A DNA stretch of 24,127 bases from positions 883,113-907,239 of the forward strand of contig MU646366.1 of the NCBI GenBank assembly GCA_026770585.1, given 5' to 3'. Shown one piece after another: positions 1-24,127 of the stretch (positions within the stretch are counted from its first letter, which is position 1; each line of letters starts with the position of its first letter). Position numbers and translations under genes: made by a program. Origin of the DNA: Baffinella frigidus (lineage: Eukaryota; Cryptophyceae; Cryptomonadales; Baffinellaceae). The notes under the pieces were generated by a model. The model made no database searches and had not been told where the DNA came from. It was given only the letters and a program-made list of their open reading frames with translations.

Positions 1-46
1 CCCCAAACCCCAAACCCCACACCCCAAACCCCAAACCTCAAACCAG
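1..46. repeat. CCCCAAA telomere-like array (intron, left edge)
   Basis: Near-perfect CCCCAAA heptamers running directly into the acceptor of exon 1. The window begins inside the intron. Confidence 0.9.
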
Positions 47-124
47 GTAAAACCAGGGAAGCCCAAGTCAGCCGAGATTGTCGTCCCCCCACCGGAAGGA
101 GCCGAACCATTCAGGAAGCTGCAG
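47..124 (+). CDS. SMCHD1: exon 1 of window: start of an Ig-like unit
   Basis: The acceptor is the end of a CCCCAAA array (aaaccag) and the donor is gttctt. The reading begins VKPGKPKSAEIVVPPP and ends FRKLQ. The 'GKP' motif is typical of the start of each SMCHD1-type beta unit. Length 78 nt, phase 0 in and out. The true upstream phase is unseen because the preceding exons lie outside the window. Confidence 0.75.
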
Positions 125-3071
125 GTTCTTATATACACGAATTCCTAGACCCGAAACCCTATACCAGAACATGTGAAACCTCATCGGGTGTTGTCCGAAA
201 CCTCATCGGGTGTTGTTGAGACACCTAGCCTTCCGGCCGGACCACACTGAAGTCTTTTCAGTAGCGTTAGACTGAATGAGTTTCTGTGCATAGGTCGAGG
301 GTTGCGGGTTGAGGGTTGAGGTTCGAGTGTTGAGTGTTGAGTATTGAGAGCTGAGGGTTCGTCGAGTACGATACAACCTCATCGCTTTACTCGAAAATGT
401 TCACTCGCGATAAATGCGGTCCTGGGGAGGCCCATAAACTCTAAAACCTAAACCCAAACATAGGTCCTGGGGACCAACAAGAAGAACGCCCTGCTTCTCC
501 GGTTCTGCCCTGAACTCCACCCCCAAGCCTTGAACCCAAAACCCCAAACCCTAACTCCCGAACCATACACTCTAAAACCCAAACCCTAAACACCAAACCC
601 TGAAAACCGAACCATAAACCATAAACCCCAAACCTCACACCCCAACCTTCAACCCTGAACCCTGGATTTTAATCCGTAATCCCGTGAACCTGAACCCGAA
701 ATCCCAAACTCTTAGCCGTGACCCTAAACCATAATCCATATACCAGGTTCTACGATGATGTCGGCGTCGGAAAATATGACTCAACGTCCTTAGCAGCCAA
801 AAATTGGAAAGGCAACTGGTGCTACCTTCAGGTCTCACCTCACATTCAAACCTCAAACTCCATACCCTAAATCCTGAACCCTAAACCCGAAACCCGAAAC
901 CTCAAACCCTGAACCCTGAGCGCCACAACCTGATCACTAAACCCCAAACCCCAAACCCCAAACCCACACGCCACACAACAAACCCAAACCCAACCCACAA
1001 ACCCCAAGCCCCAAACCCCAGCCCCCAAAAGACAGAGCTGGTACCCACGCAGCTCTTTCTCTCTGAAACGTTTGCGGAACGTGATGGCTACTTTGCAGAG
1101 GGTGTGACGGTAGCACACTGGTTGGTGGCCTGGTTGGTGCCTAAATCCTGAACCCTGAACCCTAAACCCCACACCCTGAAACCTAAACCCCAAACCCCGA
1201 ACCCCAAACCCCAAACCTCAAACCCCACACCTCAAACCCCAAACCCCAAACCCCAAACCCCAAACCCCAAACCACAAACCCCAAACCTCAAACCCCAAAC
1301 CCCAAACCCCAAACTCAACGCTTGACGCTTCAAACCGCAAACCACCTGAACCCTGAACCCTTCCTCCCAGATTCAGGTGATAACAATGCAACTGTTGGAT
1401 TCCACACCGAAGCCATGAACGCCAAACCACACACCTTCAACCCCAACCCCGAACCCCAAGCCTTTCGCCCTGAGTTTTACACGCTGAACCCCAAACACCA
1501 AACCGCTGAACCCCAAACACCAAACGTGGTCGAAATCACACAACAAGCCCCTCAACGCCCGAACCCAAACCTCAACCATCATCCGGGGACATGGTTGATT
1601 TAATGAATTTGGGCAATGCACAGCACTACTGTGTTGCTATTACTAGTTTGAGCCTTATGTGTAGATGCATTGCTCAAACCAAATTAAAGGAAGTTTCCGG
1701 ATTCAACCCGAACAGGACAAACCTGAGACGATGCCGCCGGTCGAGATTTTGCAGATCGAGGACCCCTCGACGCCTTCCCAGGTCTCCCTTAACCAATCTA
1801 ACCCCCCTCAACAAGGCTTCGCCTCAACCTTCAAACCTAACGTCCCGAGGTCACGTAAACTGTGAGGACCGTCTCGGGACGAGCCCGCCTCAGGCGGAGA
1901 ACAGTCCTTTATGTAGACTTTAGGATATTGGGCTATTTCGGGTCGATCCACCCAAAAGGGGATCAAACCTTGGACCCCACAGAACCTGACCCTGACTTCA
2001 GGTACAAATCCTTCAAGTTGTACCCGTCCCGCTCGAGAGTGGTACACCGAAACCCTGGATCAGCATTTGTTACGCCACTCCTCGTTTTGAAACCCTGAAC
2101 GCTACCCCCATTTTGAAACCCCACCGCTGCCCCTCTTTTTGCAGGTCAAGTTCACATTCTCCCCCTCCGCGGAGAAGACCGGAAACGTCGGGTAAGCCTC
2201 ATGGGTTAGGGTTAGGGTTAGGGTAAGGGTTGGGGTTAGGGTTAGGGTTAGGGTTAGGGTTAGGGTTAGGGTTAGGGTTAGGGTTAGGGTTAGGGTTAGG
2301 GTTGGTGTGAGGGGTCAGCGCACGAAGACTTGATGGCCGGAAAACCCGTGTAAGCCTTACAGGTTAGGGTTTCGGGTTCAGGGTTTTGGGGTTAGGGGTT
2401 AGGGGTTAGGGGTTTGGGGTTAGCGGTTGGGGGTCAGGGGTCCGGGGTTAGGGTTCAGGGGTTAGGGGTTAAGGGTTTGGGGTTAGGGGTCAGGGGTAAG
2501 ATCGCGACAAAAGACGTCAGCCTAGCCCGGCCCTTGACCCTGGTTTGGGTTGAGGGTTGAGGGTTGAGGGTTGAAGATCCAGGGTTTCATGTTCAGGGTG
2601 CAGGACCTCCTGAACCTTATTTATACGTTTGAACTTCCTTCTACGTTTGATGTTGAGGGTTCAGGCCCTCCTGAACCTTGGTCTCCACGACACGAAGCGC
2701 TCATGAAGCGTCTCCTCGAAATCAGGTCCTCATCCAGTCGAGTCACCTCCAGTCACTTGTCCCCAAACCCTGTACCCCAAACCTTACATCCTATACTCTC
2801 AACCCTAAACCCTCAACCTCGAATCCCTGATCAAGCTGTTACACGAAGCTTGACAAATGTAAACTATGTCTTTAAGAGTATTGACAACCAGCTGACCCGG
2901 ATCCACTGTATAACCGACTGATTGAGCGGACGTCCTCACTTCATAGGTGTCATTATTTTCCCCCAGTAGCCTTGTATCCACCTACATATGTGTCTTGATA
3001 CTTGTACGGATGTGGAGTCGAGTCACGTCCCGGCAGGTATCTGAGCTGAGGTCTGCTTCTCTGTCGCTCTT

Positions 3072-3121
<50 letters not shown>

Positions 3122-6100
3122 GCTCTCTCTCTCTCTCTTATGTAATCTTTCTCTCTCTCTCGCTCACTCTCTCTCTCTCGGAAGGTACCTTTCCTTCGAC
3201 GTGAAGTGCCACCTGGAAAACGAAAAAAAGCTTCAAGAACTCGCCACCATGAAGTCTGTCAAGGTCTCTACCGTTACTTCTTGAATGGAGGCTGCTTTTG
3301 CTTTGAACCGTTCTCAACCGACTTTTGTCTGGGCGAGCAGTCTATTTTTTCGTACCAATTTGGCTTTCCGCTTCAAGCTTGACGGATTTGTACCACACAG
3401 CCAGCATGTCGACTCGATAATAGTCGGCCATCCAAAGTGTGGCAGAGCTGTAAGTTGTGAGATTGGCCTTTGACTGGTAGAGCAAATTCTGATACGGATC
3501 TCATATGGCAACATATTCAATCTGAACCATTGGTCTTTTTTTCTTACGGGTGGGATGCGTGCTATTGTAAAGCAAGTCCAGGCTAAAAAAGACAATTCCA
3601 CCCTGTGTGTAACACAAAACGGTGTTTTAAATTGAACCTGTTTTCGCATTGAATCCTGCCCGAAGCAGAACAGTGCTGGTACAACAGCTGCCTGGGTTAG
3701 TCAAGTGTCGTGGGAAGCAATCAATCATTTTTTAGGACACGGGTTCAGGGTTTGGGGTTTGCTGCGGGCCCTAACCCCTGATCCTTTCACTCTCAAAGCT
3801 TGACACACGACGAAACCACCACGATGGGCAGAGTTTACGGTGGATTTGTTAGGCGAAATCAGCTATTTGACGTTTGGCAAATTGCGTGGGAATTCTGTGA
3901 TGTATCTCCCAAAGTGGCCAATCCATGGTACCAACAATAACCAGTCTCTCGTCCGCCTGCTCAACGTTGAGCGCATTCGTGGCAGGTTCAGACAAAGGTC
4001 AAGATCACGTTTTTCCCGGGGGGCGGGTCTGGGGGCGGGTCGAAGCGCAAGCTCGGAGAAGCGGGACCCTCGAACCCCGATTCTTCCGGGACACCCCGAA
4101 GCTTCGTGGCGACCGTCGCCGTGGAGGTGTGTGCCGGAAAGCCGCACAGTCTTGTGGCGAAGGTGCAGGGGCAGCACGGGGCGAAGAAAGATGCGCCGCT
4201 CGCACTGGAGAACCACCAGAAGGGCCCCAGCGTCGCTGTCACCGCCTACGACAAATGGAAGCACCCCTTGCGCTCGATCATCCACGCGGAGAGGGAGGAC
4301 GCTCTCGAGGTCGTCGAAGTCCTGAAGCATGCCGGGGGAGGGGATCCGCGCAGGACGGGGCGGAAGAAGAGTCTGGAGTCCTTCCGCGCCGTGACTGTCA
4401 AGGCCAACGCGGCAACGGGGGCCACGGTGTTCGAAGGCCGCGCGCTCCACTTGGAGGAACCTAAGGTGCCGCCACCTGAAACACGAAACCCGGAACCGGA
4501 AACCAGGAACCGGAAACCCGAAACCCGAAATCCTATCCCTAAACCCCTCAACCCTGCACCCTGAACCCTGAATCCCAAACCATAACCACGCCCTAAGCCC
4601 TGAACCCTACACCAGGTCGATTCACCGGAGAAGCACGATCTTATCTACAAGATCAAGGAAGGTCAGTAAACCTCACACCCTACATCTTAGCTCCCTCAAA
4701 CCGTATACCTCTAACCCTAAACCCTAAACCCTAAACCCTCACCTCTAAATGAAATTTTCCCCGACTCCCACAAAACCCTAACCCCCTCAAAACCTTCAAC
4801 CCTAAATCCTAAACCAGGTGCTCCGGGCATCGAGACTTCAATCTCTCTCACCATCACGCCCTCCAAGGCCCCTTTCTCGGTGTGGCCGTACCTGACAAGG
4901 GAAGGCGGAGCAGCGGTGAAGCTTCCGCGCTCCGAAGATGGGGCGACCTTCTTGCTCCTCGCTCACGCTGGGAGCACCGTCTCTGGGGTGTGTGTTCTTC
5001 TTTTTCATGTCCTTCTTTATTTTATCTTTTCCGGTTCTTGTTTTTTATTTTATTTTTCTTTTTTTTGGCTCCGCTCTGCATAGGCCCTACACCCTCAACC
5101 TCAAAACCCTCAACCCTATCCCAGGTGTCGTTCCGGTTCTTCGACGAGGCGGGCGAGCGCGTGAACATCGAGCCGGGCAGCGGATGGGCAGCCAAGGGTG
5201 GCGGATGGCCAGAGAAGGTGCCCCCCCCCCTCTAGTAAGGTACACGTACAGCTACCGGGAAAAGGGAATTCAAACACCCATGGCGCGAGGTCTATCCTGA
5301 TACGGCTGTTTCGACGAGCTGGTGAAACTCCCACCCCTTTTAAAACGTGAACCCGCCCGGCAGAGCACGGCGGTGAGCGGGGAGGTTTCGATGCCGGGGT
5401 GCAAGATGCGCGACAAGGCGGGCGACAAGGAAAAACTCACCATCATCTTCGAGGGCCCGCCTGGAATCGCGAACAAGAAGCTCGACTGCGTGCTCGTCCT
5501 CTCCCCCTCCGCCGCACCCCCCAAGAGCTGGCTCCTCGCAAGCCCTCCTCAGGCAGACAAGACCGGCAAGATGATGGACCCGAAACAGTTCTCCGCCCAG
5601 AACAAGTGCAAGGTGGGCAGCGGGCGGTTTCTCCGGGAGTTTCTATGTGCGCAGCTGGTTGACGAGTTTAACAACGTCTGCTCGCTCTCCTCGGTGCCTC
5701 CGGAGCTGGTCCCGGAACTCATTATCTCGGGCAAAAACCCTGGCATCACTCTGAAAGGGGGAGATGGGGTATGGGAGCGCATGGGGGAATACTTCGTCCC
5801 GCCTGCTGACGCGATGCTTACGGGGAAAGTGTCAGACCCGTTCGACATCAAGGTCAAGACCGGCCGCCCGACGGTGGCTGCTGACGCAGGGGGGCAGGGG
5901 GGGCGCGCCGGGGGGGCGCAGCAGAAGAACATCGCTATCTTCACGCAGCAGGTCCTGCTCGAAGCGGGTCAACCTGCACGGCTCAAGGTCAGCTATAAGC
6001 CGGAGGTGAAGTCGGAAGGGGTCTGGGCCGCTGCTGTCGAGAAGAGGCTTATCACAGACGGAAAGGAGCTGCCTGGTGAACCCTGAATCCTACACCCTGC

Positions 6101-9100
6101 ACCCTACACACTTGACCCTACACCCTGCACCCTACACCCTACACCCCACACCCTTCACCCTACACTCTACACCCTACACCTACATCCTGCACCCTATACC
6201 CTGCCCCCTACACCCTACACCCTACACCCTACACCCTGCACCCTACACCCTACACCCTACACCCTACACCCTACACCCTACCTCCTACACCCTACACCCT
6301 GCACCCGACAACCGACACCCGACACCCTGCACCCTGCACCCTGCACCCTACACTCTCAACCCCAGCACCCCAGCCCCTACACCCTAAACCCTTTATTCCA
6401 CACCGTGAACCCTTAACCTTTAACCCTCAGCCCTAAACCCTACACCCTAAACCCTACACCCTAAACACTAAACCCTCAACCCCAAACCCTAAACCCTAAA
6501 CCCTAAACCAAAAGCCCTAAACCCTAAACCAAAAGCCCTCAACCCTCAACCCTAAATCCCAAACCCAGGGCCGTTTCCGACGCACTACCTTCTCCAGGAG
6601 CTTGAAGTTCAGGTGGTGGACCAGTGGGACAACGTCGTTGCAGGCTCGTCCTCAATTTCCCTCGACCTTGAACCCTAAACCATGGACCCAAAACCTTCAG
6701 CCCCAAACCCCAAACCCTGAACCCTAAACCTCAAACCCTAAACCCTATACCTCAAACCCTAAACCCTAAACCCTAAACCCTAACCCCTAAACGCTAAACC
6801 TTAAACCCCAAACCTCAAACCTAAACCCTAAACCTTAAACTCTCAACCCTAAACCCTAAACTCTCAAACCTCAATCACAAACTCTAAACCCTAAACCTTA
6901 ACCTCAAACCATCGACCGTCAACCCCAAACCCTAAACCCGCAACTCCGAACCCGAAACTTTAAACCCCAAACCCTCGCTAATAACGGAGACCCTCCCTGC
7001 CGGGCAGGCAAACCGGTGAAGACAGCCAAGGTTTCGTTTTCGCTCAAGGAGTGTTTGCTGGCCGACCCTTCCGCCAAGAAGCCGGTTGAGGTACCCAAAC
7101 CCTCAACACTCAAACCCAACCCCCAAACCCCGAACCTTGAACCCTGAACCCGAAATCCTTAACCCTACACCCTCGAGTGAGACAGTCGTCAGCCAGCAAG
7201 ACCTCTGAATAGCTCCCGATCGCAGACTCTGGTCAAAGCCTTTTCGCAAGCCTGGAGCCTGAAGTTCACCAAGACCATGATTCGCGCAGACATTGGAAAC
7301 GGCGAACTCAACAAGAAGGGCACGGTCCGTGAGGGTTCAGGGTGTGGGGTTTAGAGTTCAGAGTTTAGGTTTTGAGGTTTATGGTTTAAGATTCAGGGGT
7401 CAAAACCCTATCTCCCACGCGCAGTACATTTGGGCATCGCCATGTGTTTGTTTAGCCTGTGCTGTGTCCCGCACGTGTGCGGATGTGTACCACACGCACA
7501 CGCACACAGCATGTCAACTACGTGGCTTCACGGGCCGTGCTCCCACAAGTCGCCTGCGAAACGACTCAAAAACTGAAACTGAGGCCGAGGCTTACGTCAA
7601 AAGTTGACGCTTCTGAATTTGACGACGCTGAACACTCAACTAAACCATAAACCATAAACTATACACCCTGACCCCAAACTGCAAAGCCTAAACTCTGCAT
7701 CATAAACCCTAAACCAGATCGTGTGCACCGTGGGGGTGGACCGTGAGGGGAAAAAAGTGGAACTGCCGCACTTCCACTTTCTCCTTCGCTTTTTCGAGTC
7801 ACGGTCCGCCCCAAGACCTAAATCCTGAACCGTGAACTGTAAACCCCAATCCTTAAACCTTGAAACCTGAATCGTAAACTGTGAACCCTGAAACCTGAAA
7901 CCTGAACCCTAAACTGTACAATCTGAAACCCGTACCCTGGAAGCTGAATCCTGAAGTGTAAACCCTGAACCCTGAACCCTGAACCCAGAAACCCAGAAAC
8001 CAAGAAACCTGAACCCTGAAACCTGAACCCTGAACCCCAGACCCCAACCCCCAAGCCCTGAACCCCAACACCCCAATCCCGCAGGCACGTGTGTCGCATG
8101 ACGCTAGCATGGCACCACCCTCCGGTCACGTTACCAACCGGCTCCGACGACTCCCTCGTCCCAAACACCCCCGCCTCCCTCGTCCCCCCAAACCTTCCCC
8201 GCCCCCCCTACCCTACCCCCCCCACCGTTCCGCGCACTGCGATCAGTGGGGTTGCGGGCGGAGTTGGGGGGCGGGCGGGCGGGGGAGGGGGGTCGTTGGG
8301 GGGGGCGGGCGGGGGAGGGGGGATGGGGGGGGCGGCTGCGGCAGACGTGGCGGGGGGGGGGATGGAGATGGAGGGGGTGCATCAGGTCAGACCCCAACGC
8401 CTTGATCCTCAACCCTGAACCCTGGACCATAGATCACAAACTCTAGTAAACCCTCAACACTGAATCCTCAACCCTGCAATCACGCTGGTCGGCGTATGGG
8501 CAGCAGGATTGACTGAACTCGTTGTTCGCAGTCACCCAATTTCTTTGTTCGTGGTTGACTGAATTGTTGGTTCGTGGTTGGCTAAATTCTTTTTGCGCAA
8601 TCAGGTTCGGACGAATCAGCCTGCGGGGACGCTGGTCGTCCACTTGGAGTGAGTCTCCTCTTCTCGTCCCACAACCGAACCCTGAAACCTTAACCCCAAG
8701 CCCCAAACTCTCAACAGCCTGCACCCCACGTCCCAAGCCATCAACAGTCGAGGGCGCCTTTCGTTCTAGCTCTGCCTCAGTCGAGTTGACTGAATATTCA
8801 CAAGTTGACAAGCTGGGTGTGTAAAAGGCAGAAGAGAACAACCGATGCTCCGCACGTGTTTGACTAATGCTAGATGCTACTCCGAAGTCTTTCGGATTTC
8901 AGGTGATGGTCGAGGGTCGGGGGATTCCCTGACTGCCCCCAAAAACCTAACCCCAATTACCCGGATCCAGGAACGCAGACGGGTCGATAATGACGAACGA
9001 GGGGGTGCAATACCCCACAGCTTTCGCCAATCTCCTCTCCTCGCTCAAGGTACGCCATACATCGGGTTGGGGGGTTAGTGTCTGGGAGCCATGACAGAGC

Positions 9101-12100
9101 GTGCTAGCGTCAACAAAGACGCGAATCAGCGGATCGACTTGGGTTAGAGCGGGTATCAGCCCCACTGCCACACCACTCGAGGTTAGAAAAGGCTCTGTTT
9201 TCAACCTGGGTTCCTTCCTTCACAAGGGCGGTATGTAGTGAATTTTACACAAAAATCCTCGTAGCCCTTCGGCGTTGAGGGCGTATGGTGTAGGATTTCG
9301 TTTTTGAGCAGACCGGGTGTTGGCGTACCGTTTTTGAACCTGCAGGAGCTGAACCCTAAACCCTAGAGCCAAAGCAGGTTTCGGTGATTAGGGTACCTAG
9401 ACCCTGAACCCTGAACTCTGAACCCTTAACCATGAACCCTTTAACCTGAACCCTAAACCCTGCACCCTTAACTAACGCCCAACCCTAAACCCTAAACTCC
9501 AAACCCTAAGCAGGTTTCGATTTCCGCGGATCCAGTCCAATCTGGTTGGATCCAGTCCAATTTCTAGCTCTGTCTCACTCAGGTTGACCACTTATTCTCA
9601 AGGTGGCTCTGGGTATGCGGTAAAAATGCCCCTGCCCACCAGATTGGAGAGCCCAACTAGACTGATAAATCTCAAACCTTAAACCCAAACTAGGTTTCGG
9701 TTTCCGAGATCAAGCCTGATGGCACCGACAAAGACGTGTCGAAAAACAGAAAGATGTTCAACCTTGAGGTTAAACCTCAAACCGAAAAACCAAACCCTAA
9801 ACCTTGAACCCGACAACCCCAATACCGAAAAACCTCTTACCGAAAAAGACTCGAAGAAACGCAAGGAGACCTTGACGCCGAAACCCCAAACCCCAAAACC
9901 CAAACCCCAGACCCCACACTCCAAACCCCAGACCCCAAACCCCGAACCCTGAACCCTGAGCCCCCAAAACCTAAAACTTATTCTAAACTCTGAATTCTGA
10001 GCCCTGAACCCTAAACCCTGAACCCTACACAGCGTGGGGAAAATCCTGCAATCTTCGGCGAGCTCAAGATCAGGTAGCCACACCAGAATGCAAGAGCATT
10101 CTTTTTAAAACCGAGATACTTCACACGTGGGCATTTATGTAGCAATTTTGTTAGATTGGTCACGTAACTGATCAAAATCTGGCCAGGCACGAGGTTGGTT
10201 ACGTTATCCTGGCACCAATTGTTACAAACCCGATGTAAACAGGGTGCTTCAGCATTCTTGAGTGGAGCCGCACAACTCGACGCCAAAAAAAGCTGATTCT
10301 AAACTGGGTTTCATTGCAGGTGAGGCGGTGTGTAGTAATTTCCACATAAAAAATCGCGTTTGGTCACTTTACTGTGGAAACGTGGATATCCCGCAGGAAC
10401 GTGACTGGTACAAACTTACCAACCAAATTTATGAAATAGTCATACTGCCAACTTCGAGTTGCACCCTGCTTCGTGTGCCCCGAAACGGCAACGCACCTGT
10501 GCGGGCTAGTGGTAGACATGCGTTTTTTTTTGGCTAGTGCGGTGTAGCCACACAGCAGGCTACGAAGGGATTCTCGGTGGATAATCCACCGACTTTCCGT
10601 TTCCTCATCCGCAGGAACCCCCTATGTGCCTACGATATTGCCTACCATGGGGTCATATATAGTATCGCTTTGGAGTTGTTCGAAATCCCTTTGAAGTCCG
10701 CGGTGTTGCGTATTTCACGTGTCTGGCGCAAATCGCCATGGTCAACCTTTGGTGAAAATTGACGCATGTCCAGCTATGAACCCCTAAACCCTAAAACAGG
10801 GAGGGGGGCGTTGGAGGGGTTGAGTTTCCGCCCGGGACTCCTCTCAGGCAAGCCGGGGAATATGTCGTCAAGGTGACCAAACCCCCATGGGATAACTGAT
10901 TCAGCTCCGAGAGAGAGAGAGAGATGTTTCATACAGGAAGTTCAGCTTTGCAGGACTGCATAAAACTCCAAACCTGTAGCCCGTACGGACTACCTCTTTT
11001 ATGTTTGTTTTTTATGGGGTTGGGGTGGGGGTTCGGATGGAACCGATAACAAACGATAATACGGAATTGCCGCCAGCCCTTAGGAGTCGGCCGCTGTGAA
11101 TCGCATGAGAAAACAGATCCAATTTATATCACCGTTTGCTCTCGTGGGGCGGATTTTGACAATCAACCATGAACCCTAAACCAGGTTACCTACGAAGAGA
11201 AGCGCTCGCTCATGAAGCAGGCCCTGAGCGCCGCAGAGTGCACTGTGAGCTCCCCTGCTTCATTTTCGTTCAAGAGTTTCGTGTGTAGGGTTTAGGGTCG
11301 ATGATGCCACCGTGCCCCAACACTGCATCTCCCCTTCAACGGAGCACTCTGGACCCTAAACCCTAAACCCCAAACCCTGAACCCTAAACCCTAATCCCTA
11401 AACCCTAAACCCTAAACCCTAAACCCTAAACCCTAAACCCTAAACCCTAAACCCTAAACCCTAAACCCTAAACCCTAAACACTAAACCCTAAACCCGAAA
11501 CCTCAAACCCTTAACCATAAACCATAAACCATAAACCCCAAACCCTAAACCCCACACCCCAAACCCTACACCCTAAACCCTAGACCCTCAATTATGAACC
11601 CTCAACCAGGTGACGGCGTCAAAGCGGATCATGGTGCAGGCGTTGCCCCCGCACAAGCTCAAGGTTGCCTTTTCGCCAAAAGTTGCCCCCATATTGACTT
11701 TCCCCCGAAAAGTTATCCCAACGTTTCTTTTTGATGATGTCCGGCACAGATTCGTTAATTCTGGAGCGGAAAACAGCCCGGGAAAACCAATTTGGCGATC
11801 AAATAGCCCGGGAAAACCAATTTAGTGATCAATGAGACAGAGCTAGGAGTTATTTCGAAGCGACGCACGCGGGCTTGTTTGTCGATCCGCAGTTGACTTA
11901 TTCGAGAGTTGACGTGTTCGGTTGGAGTTGGCTTAGTCGACCCGTTCGTTCATGGATGGGGCACTGTACAAGTCGTGGTACATTTCGGCCAGAATTCTGG
12001 GTGAAATTACCTTCGAAGCCCATTGTGTGGAGGGTTCAGGTTGATACTAGGAAAATAGATGGGCATTTCCCGCGATTCCCCCCCCTCACGTGGAACCCCC

Positions 12101-12812
12101 ACTTAGCAGCCACATGTGTCATTTCCCTCCGGATTTCCCAAAATCACCGGTGCCTGCTGAGTGGCTTACTACTCAGTCGGGTTGGCAGATAATCGTGTTG
12201 GAACATGCGGGGAGCTCTGTCACCAACACCACCGGCAATTCAGTTGGTACGAACCCCATCTCCGCTCGCTCTGATGTATGTTTCAGATTGTAGGGCTTAG
12301 GGTTGCGCTGCCTGGGTTTGCATGCAAGTTCCAAACGACAACTTCACCTGGAACGGGCTTGACACGGGCTCGACCCTAAACCCGAAACCTGGACATAGAA
12401 AGAGGGGCTGAGGATCGCGGACTCGATCGAGCTAGCCCTGAATCGTGAACTCGAAATACTGTTCTGACCCCAAAACCCTCAACCCGAAATCCTGAAACCT
12501 GATCCGAAACCCCAAATCATGAACCCGACATCCTGAACCCTGAACCCGAAACCCTGAACCAGAAACCCTGAACCCTGAACCCGAAACCCCTGAACCCAAA
12601 TCCCGAACCCTTGGAGCTTATCAACTTGCATGGGCACCGAAACTTGAAACCTGAACAGGTAACGAGAGGCTTCAGATTGCAGACCCGAGACAGATAGATA
12701 GATAGATGGATAGCTTGATGGATGGGTGGATGGATGGATAGATGGAGAAATAGATACACTTTGAAAAATGATAGATAGATAGATAGAGAGATACATAAAA
12801 ATAGATAGATAC

Positions 12813-12849
<37 letters not shown>

Positions 12850-15800
12850 CAGATAGATAGAGATAGATGAAAATCAATAGATCGATAGATAGATAGATAG
12901 TTAGATGGATGCAAGGATGGATGTGATTGACGGTATCTGCTCGCTCGAGCAGGGAACGAGATCGTGAAATCGATCGAGCTGGCCCTGCAAGACTCGGAGG
13001 GCAACCAAGCCATCATGCCGCTTCAAGGGGTACCTTTCAGGACGCCTACACCATGAACCACAAGCCCAACCCCCGAAACCCGGAACTCGAAACTCGAAAC
13101 CCGAAACTCTGTAAGACTCGGAGGGCAACCATACCTGAGGGGGCATGCCTCACCACACCCCTACACCTTCAACCAAACGCCGTAAACCGTCGGGGCGTGG
13201 CACCACACAGCGGACTACCCAGGGATTTTGTGAAAAACCTGGAAGTTGAAGCTCCGTTACTCACTCCGGTAGGAAATACAGTAGAGACAAGCAGAGACAT
13301 AGGGGAGTTCCTACAGACCAGGTAATCGAAAGGTGGTCAGCATCCGACAAAAAATCCCTGCGTAGCCCTCTGAGTGGGTTGGATGGCTCTACATCAGTGG
13401 CTTTACACATGAGAAATTGCTGTCCAAAACTCAGCCGTTCTTCATCGAGGACGGAATCTCAACCCTGAATCCTGTACCCTCCACCAGGTGGATGTGGCGT
13501 GGTTCATCGATGACGGAGACGCGCCTGTGCCTCCGGGCACCATCGTTGTCGATCAGGTCCCGCTCTCAAATCCACTCTATTGTTCAAGGTGGGCACAGAA
13601 TCTCTGGATGAGGGTATCTGTTAACTCTTTGATTCAGGGTAGCGGTATTCGACTTTGGTTCACTTCTCCAAACCCTAAACCCTAAACCCCAAACCCCAAA
13701 CCCTAAAACCTTAAACCTAAACCCTGAACCCTAAACCCTAAACCCTAAACCCCAAACCCTGAACTCTACACCCTAAACCCGAACACCCCAAACATCAAAC
13801 CCTCCCCCGCGTCAACACAACCACCAACCCCCCTCCCCCCCCTTTTCAGTCGTTCAATTTCTGCAACGATGAGAAGCGAGCAAAGGAGATCAAAGATCTC
13901 GACGAACCCCTCCAGAAAGCCAGCGAAGCGGTAACCTCCTGATCCCCAACCCAAGCACCGCCCCCAAATCTTAAGCACCGCCCCCAAATCTTACACACTA
14001 ACCCCAACCTGCTATGCCCGTGAGCCCAAACCTTCATGCCCCGGTTTTGGCGAAGCTAAACCTTAAACCCTAAACCCTGAACCATGCTCCCTCAACCCTA
14101 AACCCTAAACCCTAAAACCTCAACCCTAACCCTAAACCCTAAACCCTAAACCCTAAAACCTAAACCCTAAACCCTAAACCCTAAACCCCAAACCCTAAAC
14201 CCTAAGCCCTCAACCTTTAGCCCTTAACCCTAAATCCTTATCCCTAAACCCTGAACTCTGAACCCTACACCCTACACTCTGTATCCTCAAACCTAACCCC
14301 TAAACCCTAAACCCAAAGCGCTGTGCCAGGTACGCAAGCTGAAAGAGGGCCACGTGCGGCTGACAAAAAACATCGATCACTTCCGATTGGACAAAAATAA
14401 AAAAGTGATTCCCCGAGCGTGTTTTCCATTTGGTTTCTTTGAATTGCTTCTCATCCTACATGCTCGTCGTCCTAAACCCTAAACCCTGAACACTCAACCC
14501 CAAATCTTGAACCCTAAACCCTAAACCGTAAACCCCAAACCCTAAACCCCAAACCCAAAACTCTAAACCCTAAACCCTAGACTCTAAGCCCTTAACCCTA
14601 AACCCTTATTCCTCAACCCTAAACCCTAACCCCCAAACCCTCAACACACTGATTAGTCAACTGCAATACGGGGAACTCCGATTCTCAGTATCAGACACGT
14701 CATGTCCAGAGCAGGGCAACCCCCCCCCTTGCCCCAGAATGATGCCTCTACTCAAGAGCCTAATGTTGGGCTAGCGAAACAGCAGTTTCCATTATCGGTA
14801 CCACGAATCGGCCACTTTGGGAGAGAAACCGCGGAATCCATGTGCAATTCGCCAAAAATCAAATGTCCGAAATCTGATGTCGCCTCCACAAGGAGCTTTG
14901 CCCAAGCATCTTGTGTGCTAGGGTTTGGGGTTAAGGCATCTTGTGTGCTAGGGTTTGGGGTTAAGGCATCTTGTGTGCTAGGGTTTGGGGTTCACCCCGA
15001 AATCGCTACTAGCGCTCTCGCCGCCTCATGCAGATTTGCGTTTTTTTTTTTGAAACAACGCCCCTAATGTTTGAAATCACGCCCCTAATACCTGATACCC
15101 GAAACCTTGAATATCCAAAAAAGAAAGACAATTTAATCCTGAAACACAAAACCCTAAACCCTAAACTCTCAGCGCTCAACTCTAAACCCTAAACCATAAA
15201 CCCAAAACCCCAACCCTGAACCCACACCCACAACCTGAACCCTAAGCCCGGCATGCAGGAAATTGCCTACACGAAGGCACGGGAGGACGCCAGACGGTAC
15301 ATGATCAATGCTTCTGACGTGGACATGCAGAACACGGTAAGAGCGGGCGCTGAGAGCGGCCACCTTTGGAGCGGACGTTTGGTATTGGGGTCGACCTTGG
15401 GCATGGGGTTGTTGAGTATCCCAGGTGGTTTGTTTCCGGATAACTTTTCACACAGCGGGCTTCAAGGGGAATTCGTGAATTTTCGGTGGCTCGGCCACCA
15501 AACCGTCCTGGCACACATTACCCTCCACCCTCCACCTCAAACCTGAACCCCTAAACCTCAATCCCCCAAACCTAATCCCTAAACCCTCAACCTTAAACCC
15601 TCAATAGTAAACCCTCAACAGTAATTACCAAACACTGAACCCTAAACTTTCAACCCAAACACTCAACACCAAATCATGAAACCCAAACCCTAAACCCTAA
15701 ACCCTAAACCCTACACCCTTAACCCTAAACCCTAAACCTTATACCCTGAACCCTTAACCCTCAACCATAAATTTCAAACCCCAAACACTCAACCCTAAAC

Positions 15801-18800
15801 CCTGTACACTAAACCCTACACCCAAAACCTCAGACCCTACACCTCAAACCCTCTCGCGAATGCTGCCTAACTCAAGACGAATCCTGGCCAGTAAACTTAC
15901 CGTCCTGGCCGTAGTGACCGAGAAAGACTGTTTGTTTTTGACAACCAACTGGTCCCGATGTATCTCCGGGGTGAATGAAACTAACAGGCCTCGTGCCATG
16001 GGCGTTTTGAGTTCCTTTTCCCCAGTAGCCTAAGATCTACCTTGCTGGAGTGACTGTGGTGAACTTTGCAGACGAAGGTGGAGGAGTGGCTCTTGGACTA
16101 CAAGCACAGGGCTGTCGGGGCACGCGAATGGAGCTGCGAAGATCCCAACTTCAAATCAGCGACAGAACTGGTGAGACCCTGATCCATCAACCCTGCACCA
16201 TACATGCTGAACCCTGAACCCTGAACCTTAAACCCTAAACCCCAAACCCTAAACCCTCAACCGTAACCCCTAACCTCTAAACTCTTCACTTTAAACCCTA
16301 AACTATAAGTTCTCACTCCGCCCTTACTTCGCCCTAAACCAACCCAAACCACTTATAACCCCTAACTCCAAACCCTGAACCCAAACGCAACGACAACGCC
16401 TATCGTTCTGACAGGAAACTGACCCTGGAACCTCAACACTGATCCCAAAACCCAGAGCCAGACCCTGGAACCCAAACCCTGAACCCTAAGTACCAAATCT
16501 TGAGCCCTGGACCCTAAACCCCAAACCCTAAACCCCAAAATCTTGAGCCCTGGACCCTAAACCCTAAACCCTAAACCCTAAACCCTAAACCCTAAACCCT
16601 AAACCCCAAACCCTAAACCCTAAACCCTACACCCTAACCCCAAACCCTTGAACCTAAACCAGGAATATTGCAAGGCAGCCGGGTTCTCTCAGGGCGTCAT
16701 CGGAGAGCTCATCGTAGTGAGAGCCCCGCCTTTTTATTTTTTATTTTTATTATTTCTTCTTTCGCTTCTCCTTCTTCTCCCCTTGCAGTCCGTAGTGGGG
16801 CTTGATCGAGGCGTGTTCACACGAAACCTGCACCAAGTCAACCTGATTGATGTGGTTGCATAAGTTGATGTGGTTGCATATTTGTCGGTCAGTTTGCAAA
16901 GGCTCATCTTGCACACAAATTCTCAACAATATCTCAACAAAAACACCGGCTTGAAAGGAGTGAAGTCAATTGGACGGCAACTGTAGACTGTGTCTTCACA
17001 AATAGAGCAGGTCTCTTTTGACATGACCCAATTCGGAGCCTCAAAAAACCTGAAAATTTGAAAATTATAAGTCAGCAAAACTTTGAAACTTCTTACTCAA
17101 CCTTGAAACTATTGAGTCAACTGTAGTAAATTATTTTAATGGACAGGTTCACGATGTTTCCTCTACAAGTAAAGTCGACTGAACGGCAGCTTTAGATTGC
17201 GTCTTGAAAAATCCACCTGAAATTTCACGGTTTCTGCAGATCGAGGAAAAGTGGGTGGCAGATCTCTTCGCCTGGAGGTGACCCCCTACCCCCTCAACAC
17301 CACACCCCAAACTATAAACCATGAACCCCACACCCCAACTCCAACATGCAAGCGCCCTGTTCGTGTGGAGGTGACACCTCCACACGAACACCATAAACCA
17401 TCAACCCTAAACCCTAAACCCGAACATTCTGTCCGTTCTGGATCCCCTCTTTCTTTAACGTTGGTCTGACTATCAGCACACCCCTCACTCCCTCAACCCT
17501 AAACCCTAAACCCTAAACTCTATACCCTAAACCATCAACCCTCAACTCTGAAACCTCTAAATAACAAACCCTAAACCCTAAACCTGAAACGCGCAGGTTT
17601 GCACACCTGCTTATCACCGCGATCTTCACCGACCTCAACCCCGACATCGGTATAGCCCCGCCTCGGTCTATTGAGTCAACTTTTGCGGATTCATCGGTCA
17701 ACTTTGGAGAAGCTCTCTCACTTGTTTGCGCAGTTTTCGAATCGATCAACCTGTTTCAGGTTCTAAAAGTGGTTGATGTGAAAGTGGTGGATCTGAAAGT
17801 GGTTGATGAAGTGTTGGATATGAAAGTTGTGGACCCGCGGCAGGGAAGAACGAGTGCCAGAAGTACCAGAAGAAAAAGGAACTCGAGGTATAACCCTCCC
17901 TTTCGTCTGATTTCGAGTGACCATTTCAACCACGATACGAAACCTTGACTTTAAGAGCCACACACACATAACACTACGGGGAACGTGCTAAAATTAGGTA
18001 ATGATTTTTTCTTGGAAAACACGCCAAAATTCAGCAATGGTCGGTCACATTACACCGGATATCCGGGGAGTGAGAGAGCGATAGCGAGTCGCTTTACTGA
18101 AAGAGTCGAATAACAAGAAGGGAGGGAGGAAGGAGGTGTGGGGGGAGAGATAGAAAGAGTCGAAGCATTCCGCACACGCGCCGTTTGCTGTTTTTGCAAT
18201 GCCTGACCCGCTTTTTTTCTGAAGAGAGGTGAAGAAAGATGCGAGAGAGGGGGGGGCTTATCTAATTTGGAAACATGTCAATATAAAATTCCGTTTTGAG
18301 TTATCTTAATGGTGAAATTTGCTATTTTAGCCTCGAAATTTTTTTACAACAGCACACGCCCCACCCCTATGATCGGTGATCTGAATTGACTCTGTTTCCA
18401 TGTGAGATCGCGAGGTGGGAGCTGGGATAGGATTGTATCACCACAACCAATCACCAAATAAAAATAAATTAACTAAATTGTATCCCCTCTGCATACTAAT
18501 TATCATCTGAATCTGTATGCAACTCCTAAAGTAAGGTTCAATCAGATCAATCGACGTGATCTTTTGATCTTCAATATGAGTGATGTTTCGACAGGAGTGT
18601 TCGATACAACTCACGCCCTCGTCGAGAAATGACTCCCTACCCTGACATGCCACCCCCCTTCCCGTCATGAAATGTCAACCCCCTTAAGTTGACATGCACA
18701 TCTTTGCGAACAGGCGTGGAATGCTGGGTTGTTCAAGAAGTGGCCACTTACCCAACGGCGCACGGACCCCACCGGCAAAGAAGTGAGCCGCCCCTAAAAG

Positions 18801-19078
18801 GCAGAGACGTGAGGTTATGTTTGAACAAATTCGTTTGCTTGCTTGTGCAGTGTGGTTTCCGTTTGCAGGTCTGGGTCAAGTTCCCGAACTGATAGAGATA
18901 GAGAGAAAGATAGATAGATAGATAGATAAATCGATAGATTGTGGGATGGAAAGAGATAGATAGATAGATAGAGATAGAAAGATAGATAAAGAGAGAGAGA
19001 CAGAGACAGAGAAAGAGAGAGAGAGAGCGAGAGAGAGAGAGAGAGAGAGAGATGGATGGATGGATGGATGGATGGGTG

Positions 19079-19134
<56 letters not shown>

Positions 19135-20088
19135 TGGCGCTGCAGCTGACAACTCTGTCCGTTCTTTCATAAGTCCTTTCGGCATCACGCGTAGAATCCT
19201 CGCGAGGTGGGTGTTGACTAAAGGCCTTAAGTTGACCTGGTGAGGACGCCATTCCTTTGGCAGATCTACATCAAGTACCAGAACGGGAACAACGGGCAGG
19301 ACACGAGATTCGACTGGCGCAACACCCGCCTCGCCGTGAATCTCTTCAAGTTCAAGAATTCTGATGTCATCTCTCCCCCTCTGCCAACTTAAGAAGATTC
19401 TTTCGATCCGACTGAGGCAGAGCTTGGATCTGCTACGACCTCCGAACCACACAGTGGGTTACTTATCTTTCATCATGAGTGAACTTGTCCGGACGCAGTT
19501 AACTTTGAGGCCTTATATGGTACCACGTGTGTCGCGTTACCCCCCAATATTTTGAGGGCATGAGTGGAAAGTCGAACTTTTAAACTTTTCGTTTACCATT
19601 CAGTGTACCACTCAGTTGATTCTACATTCACGCGTTTCGTGTGGGATGTTTTCCCAAACCCTTAACCCTAAATTGAACCCTAAACCCTAAACCTTGACAT
19701 CTAAACCCTAAACCCTGAACCCTACACACCAAACCCTAAACCCTAAACCCTAAAACCGAAACCATAAACCATTGAACATAGTCCATAAACACCAAACACT
19801 AAACACTAAACCCTAAACCCTAGACCCCAACCCCAAATCTGGCCGCAGCTGGACAAAGAACTCCGTCCCAGGATGGTCAGTTTGTTCGGAAACGTCGTCA
19901 TCCTTGACAAGACCTCCGATGAGGTGGACCCTCAACCCTCAACACTTTTCTACCCCCTTCAATAACCAGCCCCTCCACCCTGAACCCCAAACCCTAAACA
20001 GGCTGCGAAATTTATGTACGATCTGCGAGACAATGACCTGCCTCTCGTTGAAATCATCTCCAGGGATGGCGAAAGGATCAAGGTCGGT

Positions 20089-20162
<74 letters not shown>

Positions 20163-23052
20163 GGCTCAGGGCTCAGGGTTCAGGGTTCAGGGTTCAGGGT
20201 TCAGGGTTCAGGGTATTGGGTATAGGGTGTAGGTAGTCTTCTTTAACAGAGCGAGAGCCACTTTACAGAATGTGGGGCGTGGCTTCAAGTTGAGAGTCGG
20301 GCCTGTTCAGGGTATGGGGGTTGGGGTTAATGGGTTAGTGCTCGCGGTGGAAAACGTCTTCAACATTATTATCCCTTTGGAAGGAGTCGTCTTGATAAAC
20401 CCTACCCTAGAAACCCTCAACTCTAAGCCATAAACCATAAACCAGCTAACCATAAACCACATCAAAACCGTCAACTCTAAAGCCCGCTCAACCTAAATCT
20501 CATCCTCAACCATGAACCCTAGACCATAAACCATAAACAATGAACCATAAACCATAAACCATACAGCTGCATAAATCCTAAACCCTAACCAAAAACCATG
20601 AACCCGCAGGCTAACGGCATTTCCGGGGGGAAGAACAACCACTGCCCGTTCAGCAGCTCCACGACGGTTGGTGTCCCTTTCGGGTGTGGGGGTTGGGGTG
20701 TATGGTGCCCCTAATGGCCTCTCCTGTTTTTGGGTTGAGGTAAAGGGTCTAGTGTTTAGGTGTTCCAATACTCTCGCGCAATTTTGGAACCACTCTGCTG
20801 CTGCGGGGGGGCGTTGCAGGGTGTTCAAGGGTTGAGGGGTTAGCTGTTGCACGGTGCTTGAGGGTTTGGGGTTTAGCTTTTGCTGGGTGTTTCAGGGTTT
20901 ATGGGTGATGGTTTGGTTTTTGCAGGGTGCTTCAGGTTATAGAGTTTTCATTTATCGCACGCCCACCACTCACTCCCAACGGGAGGCTTGAGAGCAATGA
21001 AAAGGCAGAGAAATTACTACTCACCTCCACCTCAGTACACCCCTCCTCTCAAACCTCCACCTCCACCGCACTGCACGAGGGTTCGGGGAATGTGGTTTGC
21101 CCCCCTTGGTTGTTTCACACCCAGGACACGTATCGTCACACACCTAGCACTAAGCACTCAACTCTAAAAACATCCCCAAAATCCTAAACGATGAATAAAC
21201 AATAATGATAATGATAATAATACAAATAATAATAATACATAATCAACCCTCCTAAACCCTACACTTTGAACCCCGTGCAGATTGCGGGCACAGCGGCCGA
21301 AGTGGTCGAGGTTCGAGCCCCTCACCTTCATGAATCAATCGCTCGAGAGTTTTTTTCCGATTGCAAATTTGCTCTGTAGAGTTTGAACCGAGCCAATACC
21401 AGGACCTCGAGTTGTTGTTAGAGTTCACAATTCTCTGCTAGGCCCCCCCTGACCGAAGTGCCGTCGAATAATAATGAAAAATTCATGGTGACACTTGACA
21501 AGTGTCACCGGTAGTAGTGAGTGGTGAGCGTGCTAGAAACGTCGCATGATACATGTCAGCTGGCGAGAGTAGTGAGCTGGGGGCATCGGAATGGAACACG
21601 AGAGCGGAACATGAAGATCTTCGAGCTTGAGGCTCATAACCTACCCGGGGTCAGAAATCATCAACGTGACTGTAAAACCGCAGAGTAAAAAACTGCTCCG
21701 GAACCGCAGGTTCTGGAGGAGCTGAAGAAGACCTTGGAACCGTACAAGACGGAGAACATCTCCATTCAGAGGGTACATACCTCTTCCCCTCGATACACCT
21801 CAAAATCAGCACTCTAGAACAGAGGGAACACCGCACCGCTCAGATGGTGCAGTCCTCTTCCTAAAACCAAAACCACAAACCCGAGAGGCCAAACCCTAAA
21901 CCAGTCCTGTTCCTCAAACCTCAATCGCAAACCCTGAACCCTACACCCTGAACCCTAAACCCTACACCCTGAACCCTAAGCCCTGAACCCTAAACCCCAA
22001 ACACCTAACCCCAAATTCTCAACCCTAAACTCAAAACCCTAAACCCTAAACCCTAAACCCTAAACCCTAAACCCTAAACCCTAAACCCTAAACCCTAAAC
22101 CCTAAACCCTAAACCCTGAATCTTTAACCCTAAACCCTGACACCTTCAACCCTAAACCTCAAACTCGAACCTTCAACTCTCAACATTAAACACGTCATGC
22201 TAGAACCCTTGCATCGTCCCACCGTGCCGTGTTTGACAATGTATTCAATCTCCATTTCTCCCCTGCAGATGCAAGAAACATTTGACGCGCGGAAAAATGA
22301 CCTCGCGAAGGAATTGAGAGACGCGATTTCCTGGGAGCAGGTCCGCCCCTCCCCTTCATCCTTCGTTATGAGCCTCAATCAGCATATTGAGTGCCACGCG
22401 ACGATAGCCTGCACCTCAAATCGAAAGTTGACTAACCCGGTTCAGGTATAATCAGTACTAAGTTTATGTTCCCCAACCCCTCAACCCTATACCCAAACGC
22501 AGGATCTGAAGACAAAGATGAAGGATCTGACCAAGGCCCGCCAGTCCATGGAAACAATGGACAACCCCGGGGCCCTCCAGGTCGCTGAACCATAATCCCT
22601 GAACACTAAACCCCCTACCCTGATCCCTCAACCCTGAGCTCTGAGGCCCTCAAGGCTTTGCCCCCCCTGCCCCCCCTGCCCCCATACCCCGTGGCCGCCC
22701 CCCACCAGTTCAATAACCCCCCCCCCCTCACATTCTCTCTCAGGTGAGATAGCCCGGAGAGGCTCTCTCTCTCGCTCGGTATGTCTTGTTCTCTCTCTTT
22801 CTCTTTCTCTTTCTCTTTCTCTTTCTCTCCCTCTTTCTCTCCCTCTATATCTCTCTTTCTCACTCGCTGCCTCTCTTTCTCTATCTCGCTGTCTCTGTTT
22901 TTCTCTCCCCGACCACCCCAATAATCCGTTACCGATGTGTGTCACGACGGCCCATTGCAACTAGCATCTTTCTCGCCAGCAGTTTTTCTCTCTAATTCCC
23001 TCGCCCTCTCTCTCTGTATGTCTCGCTTGCTCTCTCTTTCTTCCCCTCTCTC

Positions 23053-23093
<41 letters not shown>

Positions 23094-23608: not shown

Positions 23609-23887
23609 GTGTGTGAGAGAGAGAAAGATGCCTCAACTCACCAACGCCGCACTCACGTTCAAAAGAGAGAGAGCCATCGCACGTTCAAACACAACACCCT
23701 GACAGCCTGGGATAATAACATCTGAAACCCTGAACCCTAATCCCTACATCCTGACGCTCTCTTTGCTCCTGATGAATCCCAGCCACCGTGGGGGAGACAT
23801 GCGAGGGTTTGGAGTTCATGGGTCAGAGTTTAGGAGGGTTGAGGGCTTAGGGGGGGATACACATTGGTCATGTTGGCATCAATATCT

Positions 23888-24127
23888 TAACTCTGAACCC
23901 TGAACCCTGAACCCTGAACCCTGAACCCTGAACCCTGAACCCTGAACCCTGAACCCTAAACTCCAAACCCAAACCCCAAAACCCAAACCCCAAACCCCAA
24001 ACCCCAAACCCCAAACCCCAAACCCCAAACCCCAAAACCCAAACCCCCAACCCCAAACCCCAAACCCCAAAACCCAAACCCCAAACCCCAAACCCCAAAC
24101 CCCAAACCCCAAACCCCAAACCCCAAA
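23888..24127. repeat. CCCTGAA then CCCCAAA arrays (right edge)
   Basis: Perfect CCCTGAA units (about 23894-23955) switch to CCCCAAA/CCCAAAA units (from about 23960) that run off the window. Whether this is intron or downstream of the gene depends on where the stop codon is. Confidence 0.97.

Follow-up and report, generated by a model that had tools for sequence, protein, structure and literature searches.

Why should the introns of a protein gene be filled with telomere-like heptamers? The question is raised by a 24,127-nucleotide (nt) stretch of the Baffinella frigidus genome (hereafter, the window), located at positions 883113-907239 of contig C64 (MU646366.1; 1,012,366 bases) in an assembly of 382 Mb and 1,364 contigs. 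Here, arrays of the CCCTAAA family lie between the exons of what is likely one large plus-strand gene. A sequence-only reading of the window had offered three explanations, namely, repair of breaks by telomere-type sequence, an intron-spreading element carrying the repeat, and selection for a splicing-neutral filler. We found that such arrays occur in many sampled genes with their C-rich strand in the sense orientation, that they often reach the 3' splice site and have expanded in place, and that in many of these genes there are local direct duplications across splice junctions, some of whose truncated ends enter an array directly.

Arrays were called with a hidden Markov model (HMM) consisting of a CCCTAAA ring on each strand, with five dinucleotide shuffles as the control. 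The HMM identified 62 segments in the window, covering 6,151 nt on the plus strand and 971 nt on the minus strand, and called 0 nt in each of the five shuffles. The window reversed without complementing still contained 4,383 and 329 nt of array, since reversing the unit gives a word that resembles it, and the shuffle was therefore taken as the fair control. The two longest perfect runs of CCCTAAA measure 85 nt (11396-11480) and 84 nt (22034-22117). Other perfect runs with a 7-nt period include GGTTGAG (79 nt; 20086-20164) and CTGAACC (65 nt; 23893-23957), and variant units make homogeneous runs of their own (i.e., CCCTACA, CCCTGAA, CCCCAAA, GGTTGAG, and the hexamer GGGTTA). Gene models were built ab initio with a codon-plus-splice gene finder that has a strand-symmetric background. 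Among the 36 window introns that passed our filter (GT-AG ends and a predicted exon of at least 36 nt on each flank), sense arrays are found in 24 and antisense arrays in 9. The presence of the repeats inside introns is thereby confirmed, and "roughly 30" introns was a fair estimate. The window does not lie at the end of its contig.

The gene finder prefers the plus strand of the window (564 versus 250 with generic splice weights). A stricter, retrained setting gave 366 versus 53, a difference that is partly circular because the splice weights were retrained on sense-strand data including the window. No homologue of the 1,148-amino-acid spliced model was found at an E value of 0.001 among 7,991 scored candidates. 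Pfam searches returned no match for six open frames of the window and only two families, both below cut-offs, for two spliced pieces. The hinge domain that part of the late exons weakly resembles (Table 1) had no Pfam match in the spliced pieces, the longest exon had no PDB match, and Rfam gave 0 matches in the window at gathering thresholds. That the exons belong to one continuous protein, as previously asserted, is likely, with a spliced model for which no homologue was found.

The strand preference of the arrays extends to genes whose direction is given by homology. The kinesin sample comprised 14 of the 15 loci with at least two nearby Pfam kinesin exon matches (C112 was omitted, and a few matches, e.g., in C249 and C739, are under the curated cut-off). 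Kinesin profile positions run in order along these loci, and the same gene caller assigned the correct strand in 14 of 14. Arrays cover 8,890 nt in the sense orientation versus 396 nt in the antisense orientation (85 versus 7 segments); they are present in 13 loci and mostly sense in all 13, including three minus-strand genes. The kinase sample comprised 11 loci, picked by size from 31 with at least two nearby matches (several also under the curated cut-off), and was limited to the interval between matches. Eight of these intervals contain arrays, mostly sense in all eight (2,293 versus 30 nt). Searches for actin and myosin yielded 6 and 4 matches, respectively. Kinesin and kinase loci together thus provide 21 array-bearing loci out of 25, with arrays mostly sense in 21 of 21 (11,183 versus 426 nt; sign test, ~1e-6). 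A rule absent from the sequence-only reading emerges: the arrays carry their C-rich strand in the sense direction of the genes. Genome-wide, counts that probably refer to the readable part of the genome only gave 53,120 perfect 21-mers on both strands versus 27 for the reversed pattern. Attributing the repeats to introns was correct, but attributing them to the introns of one gene was too narrow. Tandem arrays are hard to assemble, and an assembly or read-error artefact might be suspected; it is hardly credible for degenerate, locus-specific arrays recurring in 21 of 25 independent loci, with the kinesin profile in order.

Twenty 10-kb stretches were also sampled as random DNA, of which 29,239 of 200,000 bases were readable and the remainder were N. 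Of the random loci, the four in which generic splice weights yield a clear codon signal follow the sense rule by majority (sense/antisense nt: L014, 1,720/414; L015, 639/38; L018, 956/0; L027, 899/274). The predicted proteins of L014 and L018 had no Pfam match, and their direction therefore rests on the codon model. Another random stretch, L020, contains no arrays. Random readable DNA is as array-rich as the kinesin loci (18% of 29,239 nt versus 15% of 60,949 nt), and in one 4.3-kb stretch, where coding signal is almost absent, arrays make up 45% (1,958 of 4,312 nt), as would be expected if the repeat were abundant in all non-coding DNA and introns were nothing special. However, the sense bias and the link to acceptor sites described below tie the arrays to transcription units, and the codon signal of the four random loci suggests genes; we consider such indifference to introns quite unlikely. 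Random readable DNA may be mostly genic.

The bias is a property of the arrays and not of the surrounding DNA. In the 19 sampled loci, the window included, DNA outside arrays and exons shows almost no strand asymmetry overall (C, 0.269; G, 0.256), with skews of -0.14 to +0.20 in single loci. Dispersed elements common to the window and other loci occur in the same orientation in 4 cases and in the opposite orientation in 6, all 10 outside arrays. With this symmetry and with common elements in both directions, the strand bias can be assigned to the arrays.

To relate the arrays to splicing, we tallied 134 modelled introns from the window and the 14 kinesin loci, of which 69 contain a sense array and 16 an antisense array. 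Sense arrays occupy 12,611 of 60,059 nt of modelled intron and antisense arrays 1,328 nt; the corresponding value for modelled exons is 278 of 16,874 nt. The splice weights behind this tally, and behind the exon-copy and within-locus-repeat results below, were retrained on data containing arrays, and the genome-wide pattern counts and homology-oriented loci are independent of them. Genome-wide, ACCCTAAACCAGG occurs 1,135 times versus 194 times for two control variants together (ACCCTAAACC[GT]GG), an excess of ~12-fold per variant, which indicates that an acceptor-like CAG|G frequently marks the array end. Among the 170 sense arrays of the 19 loci, CAGG is found within a few bases of the end in 58 and near the start in 14 (background, 4.6% per 12-nt window), and the retrained acceptor profile has no strong T tract. 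These results are compatible with a positive splicing role, in which CCCTAAACCAG would serve as branch region and 3' splice site and replace the pyrimidine tract. We find this role distinctly doubtful, however, since 65 of the 134 modelled introns lack a sense array, and sense arrays are found along the full length of the intron (17 to 23% per decile) rather than only in the vicinity of the acceptor.

The composition of the arrays indicates how they lengthen. In 2,774 sense units, C1 to C3 are conserved at 87 to 90% and A6/A7 at 83 to 87%, with only 68% at T4 and A5; in 249 antisense units, the values are 85 to 90% (C1 to C3), 74% (T4), 56% (A5), and 73 to 74% (A6/A7). A variant unit has an identical neighbour in 17.6% of cases at lag 1, in 8.1% at lag 12, and in 2.6% of comparisons between arrays. 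Because identical neighbours are most common at lag 1, expansion proceeds by copying of neighbouring units; the arrays grow in place.

This heterogeneity also bears on mobile elements. Introners are characterized by a repeated motif present in many introns, and the window and sampled loci show the same, with one motif family in many introns and a preferred orientation. Unlike in introners, no common element sequence was found here; only the heptamer is common, identity of units between arrays is as low as 2.6%, and no common sequence carrying splice sites was seen in the sampled introns. An introner-like mobile element bringing the repeat into genes is very improbable in our estimation, and the intron-spreading element proposed earlier is not supported: the unit make-up differs from array to array, and none of the window's 10 matches to other loci lies in an array. 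Elements at window positions 8766-8822, 10071-10265, and 10546-10709 are common to L032, L036, L040, and L053 (74 to 85% identity, both orientations) and are probably old transposons.

A second feature of these genes is the duplication of exon edges. At 40 bits or more, predicted exons matched non-exonic DNA 76 times in their own locus versus 4 times in all 18 of the others combined. With the threshold lowered to 34 bits, copies of exon starts lie upstream of the exon in 29 of 31 cases and copies of exon ends lie downstream in 32 of 33, in addition to 17 middle copies and 4 whole copies; only 3 matches are inverted. Direct copies of exon edges thus lie in the adjoining intron in tandem geometry, and this geometry is the remnant of a tandem duplication across a splice junction in which the intact outer copy is still spliced. 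Neighbouring copies accompany 54 of 176 predicted exons (loci include L039:2380-3500, L014, L018, L030, and L032). Outside arrays, the 19 loci contain 160 non-overlapping direct within-locus pairs versus 27 inverted pairs (2 of the latter in the window), with a median spacing of ~265 nt, and 5 of the 19 loci, including the window, have no direct pair. The window offers one clear case of an exon copy outside predicted exons, at a low threshold, and the evidence for duplication therefore comes mainly from the other loci. Among the 29 start copies lying upstream, 8 have an array that begins at their truncated end (expected, 1.0), and 12 of 61 truncated ends overall meet an array (expected, ~2.1). 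In L039, one kinesin exon start is repeated four times upstream, and each copy enters an array at the exonic word ATGAACC, which is close to the heptamer. This tendency toward duplications that span splice junctions may merit as much interest as the arrays themselves.

These observations suggest that interstitial telomere-like arrays have become a normal intron constituent that expands in place, with an orientation imposed by selection or by a strand-specific process; we place this reading just on the probable side of even. Arrays may have been seeded as filler or by template switching during the repair of duplications and breaks, for which exonic words resembling the heptamer might serve as landing sites, and would then lengthen by slippage. 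Selection could act if the G-rich orientation were harmful or unstable in transcribed DNA, through a G-rich transcript, R-loops, quadruplexes, or cryptic splicing at splice-like words (TTTAG|GG and GGGTTT). Alternatively, the orientation could be set by strand-specific synthesis or by replication running with transcription. Between selection and mechanism, the data favour neither.

Several observations weigh against this reading. The window contains 14 antisense array segments, and two random stretches would oppose the sense rule if their weak coding scores were taken at face value, namely, L028 (6.1 on the minus strand versus 3.7 on the plus strand, with 415 nt of arrays on the plus strand) and a stretch of C1 (6.7 on the minus strand versus 0 on the plus strand, with 1,958 nt of arrays on the plus strand). 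Retraining makes the abutment of arrays and acceptors in local gene models partly circular; the pattern counts are free of this. None of the 160 direct pairs comes from the window, and no array-free orthologous site was seen in the sampled loci of this one genome. At the copy junctions, 4 of the 32 end copies lying downstream have an array that stops at their truncated end (expected, 1.1; p 0.03 when taken alone); L039 supplies 4 of the 8 start-copy junctions, and counting it once leaves 5 versus 0.9 expected (p 0.002). In 49 of 61 edge copies there is no array at the truncated end, and 21 further matches are middle or whole copies. Arrays also touch the intact, splice-site ends in 10 of 29 and 10 of 32 copies (20 of 61; expectation not computed), at least as often as the truncated ends, so that contact with a copy is not specific to a repair junction. 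Break repair, as put forward by the sequence-only reading, is supported only indirectly, by the truncated ends, and arrays touch the intact ends as well.

Three candidate causes of the orientation belong with these objections. Avoidance of splice sites as the sole cause was dropped; A-to-G changes that make AG are found at positions 6 and 7 in 18 and 14 sense arrays versus 89 for position 5, a rarity that resembled selection, but the small set of antisense arrays has the same variant spectrum (1 and 2 versus 11). Avoidance of splice dinucleotides is accordingly not claimed. A general purge of AG and GT repeats from the sense strand is contradicted by the opposite pattern ([AG]n, 28 versus [CT]n, 6; [GT]n, 9 versus [AC]n, 2). 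General avoidance of quadruplexes is weak, with 15 G-sense versus 27 C-sense motifs outside arrays. The splicing-neutral filler of the earlier proposal agrees with a C-rich unit free of GT and AG and with the sense bias, but the shared antisense spectrum and the sense-strand excess of (AG)n and (GT)n do not favour avoidance of splice sites as the only cause.

The same results can be turned toward an insertion process that itself sets the orientation, in which telomerase-like extension of the template-strand 3' end at breaks or nicks would put CCCTAAA in the sense strand. The variant spectra of sense and antisense arrays resemble each other, which points to a single generating process at the level of DNA; the sense strand has not been cleared of generic repeats containing AG and GT; and some arrays start directly at truncated exon copies. 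Against this, no fresh insertion paired with an empty site was observed, and the copying of neighbours suggests that much of the array length was made in place; we regard orientation by insertion as unlikely. A wider proposal would couple everything in one process, in which breaks or unequal exchanges at splice junctions are sealed with telomere-type DNA from the transcribed strand, introns grow strand-specifically, and the heptamer is co-opted as 3' splice-site context. As a whole, this chain appears improbable.

The reading that we favour, of interstitial arrays growing within introns, has its nearest known kind in short interstitial telomeric sequences (ITS), a match made on the internal tandem units. 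ITS are internal telomere-type tracts that are variable in length and linked to break repair and instability, according to the portions available of two sources (PMC6410037 and PMC7215372). The arrays resemble them as tandem telomere-type units internal to contigs. They differ in being sense arrays in 69 of 134 modelled introns, strongly oriented, and in frequent contact with the 3' splice site, and neither the orientation nor the contact is described for ITS in those portions of PMC6410037 and PMC7215372. For yeast telomere tracts placed in an artificial intron, the available part of PMC6410037 describes rearrangement in one replication orientation and expansion or contraction in the other. 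Plant telo boxes share the AAACCCTA word within genes; in the part of PMC3022908 available, they are short motifs enriched in 5' untranslated regions, with 3,829 occurrences versus 3,945 expected in Arabidopsis introns. Here, in contrast, long arrays run throughout introns rather than forming a short 5' motif. The duplications resemble the potato RdRp gene, in which a duplicated segment also crosses an intron-exon boundary and the exonic piece of one copy turned intronic; in the available part of PMC4974935, this is a single event that made a new intron, whereas here a neighbouring copy accompanies 54 of 176 predicted exons. Among the matches listed for the open-access literature, we found no description of telomeric repeats in introns or in intron gain by tandem duplication or double-strand breaks.

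The origin and persistence of intron sequence is an old question. An intron filler with a recognizable source, a strict direction, and visible duplication junctions would make intron growth readable event by event. In addition, effects of transcription orientation on telomere-type repeats would become testable in nature, beyond engineered yeast introns. The features of the window are collected in Table 1.

Table 1. Predicted exons and main CCCTAAA-family arrays of the window
Feature	Position	Strand	Basis
Antisense exception; hexamer GGGTTA, ~17 copies amid a heptamer-dominated window	2203-2303	-	HMM
Antisense exception; two arrays (2348-2500 and 2544-2604)	2348-2604	-	HMM
Long exon of host gene	3986-4465	+	Gene model
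Array of degenerate heptamers; 140 of 150 nt of intron 4466-4615	4474-4613	+	HMM, gene model
Two arrays (4667-4749 and 4773-4815) in intron 4662-4817, ending in AAACCAG|G	4667-4815	+	HMM, gene model
Longest exon of host gene	5364-6075	+	Gene model
Array, largest example; 488 of 493 nt of intron; first part mostly CCCTACA type	6079-6566	+	HMM, gene model
Array in the intron after that of 6079-6566	6659-6975	+	HMM, gene model
Array, CCTGAAC type	7809-8080	+	HMM
Array	9869-10030	+	HMM
Array with the 85-nt perfect CCCTAAA run; extends to predicted acceptor CCAG|G at 11609	11346-11607	+	HMM, gene model
Predicted exon; by eye, truncated copy of the start of exon 12953-13029	12405-12444	+	Gene model, sequence reading
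Array after truncated exon copy 12405-12444	12464-12610	+	HMM
Exon with partial downstream copy at 13109-13131	12953-13029	+	Gene model
Array; 2-nt overlap with the start of partial exon copy 13109-13131	13045-13110	+	HMM
Array	13670-13803	+	HMM
Array	14056-14322	+	HMM
Array	14471-14645	+	HMM
Array	15520-15852	+	HMM
Array with a 53-nt perfect run; extends to predicted acceptor AAACCAG|G at 16662	16422-16660	+	HMM, gene model
Late exons, part weakly like SMCHD1 hinge domain	19264-22580	+	Gene model; sole PDB match 6n64, E 0.95
Array	19653-19837	+	HMM
Antisense exception; GGTTGAG units	20086-20233	-	HMM
Array with the 84-nt perfect run (22034-22117)	21912-22191	+	HMM
Array, CCCTGAA then CCCCAAA type; continues past the window end	23886-24127	+	HMM

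The window also contains tandem repeats of other kinds. A 30-nt unit containing a piece of the antisense heptamer is present in three perfect tandem copies (14906-14992). The tetranucleotide AGAT forms two long arrays (12688-12910 and 18896-19134), and AGAT runs of at least 4 units occur 6 times on the sense strand of the 19 sampled loci versus 0 for ATCT, another possible strand bias. Long CT-rich arrays lie at 3058-3179 (just upstream of exon 3185-3263), 22790-22907, and 23006-23089 and run counter to the sense-strand excess of (AG)n over (CT)n (28 versus 6). Outside the window, the kinesin motor exon of L038 has full-length relatives at 94%, 82%, and 72% identity from ena and jgi sources without species names, and among the best 120 of 4,711 matches, the highest identity with a species-named sequence is 54%. 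This lineage may be sampled mainly in environmental DNA.

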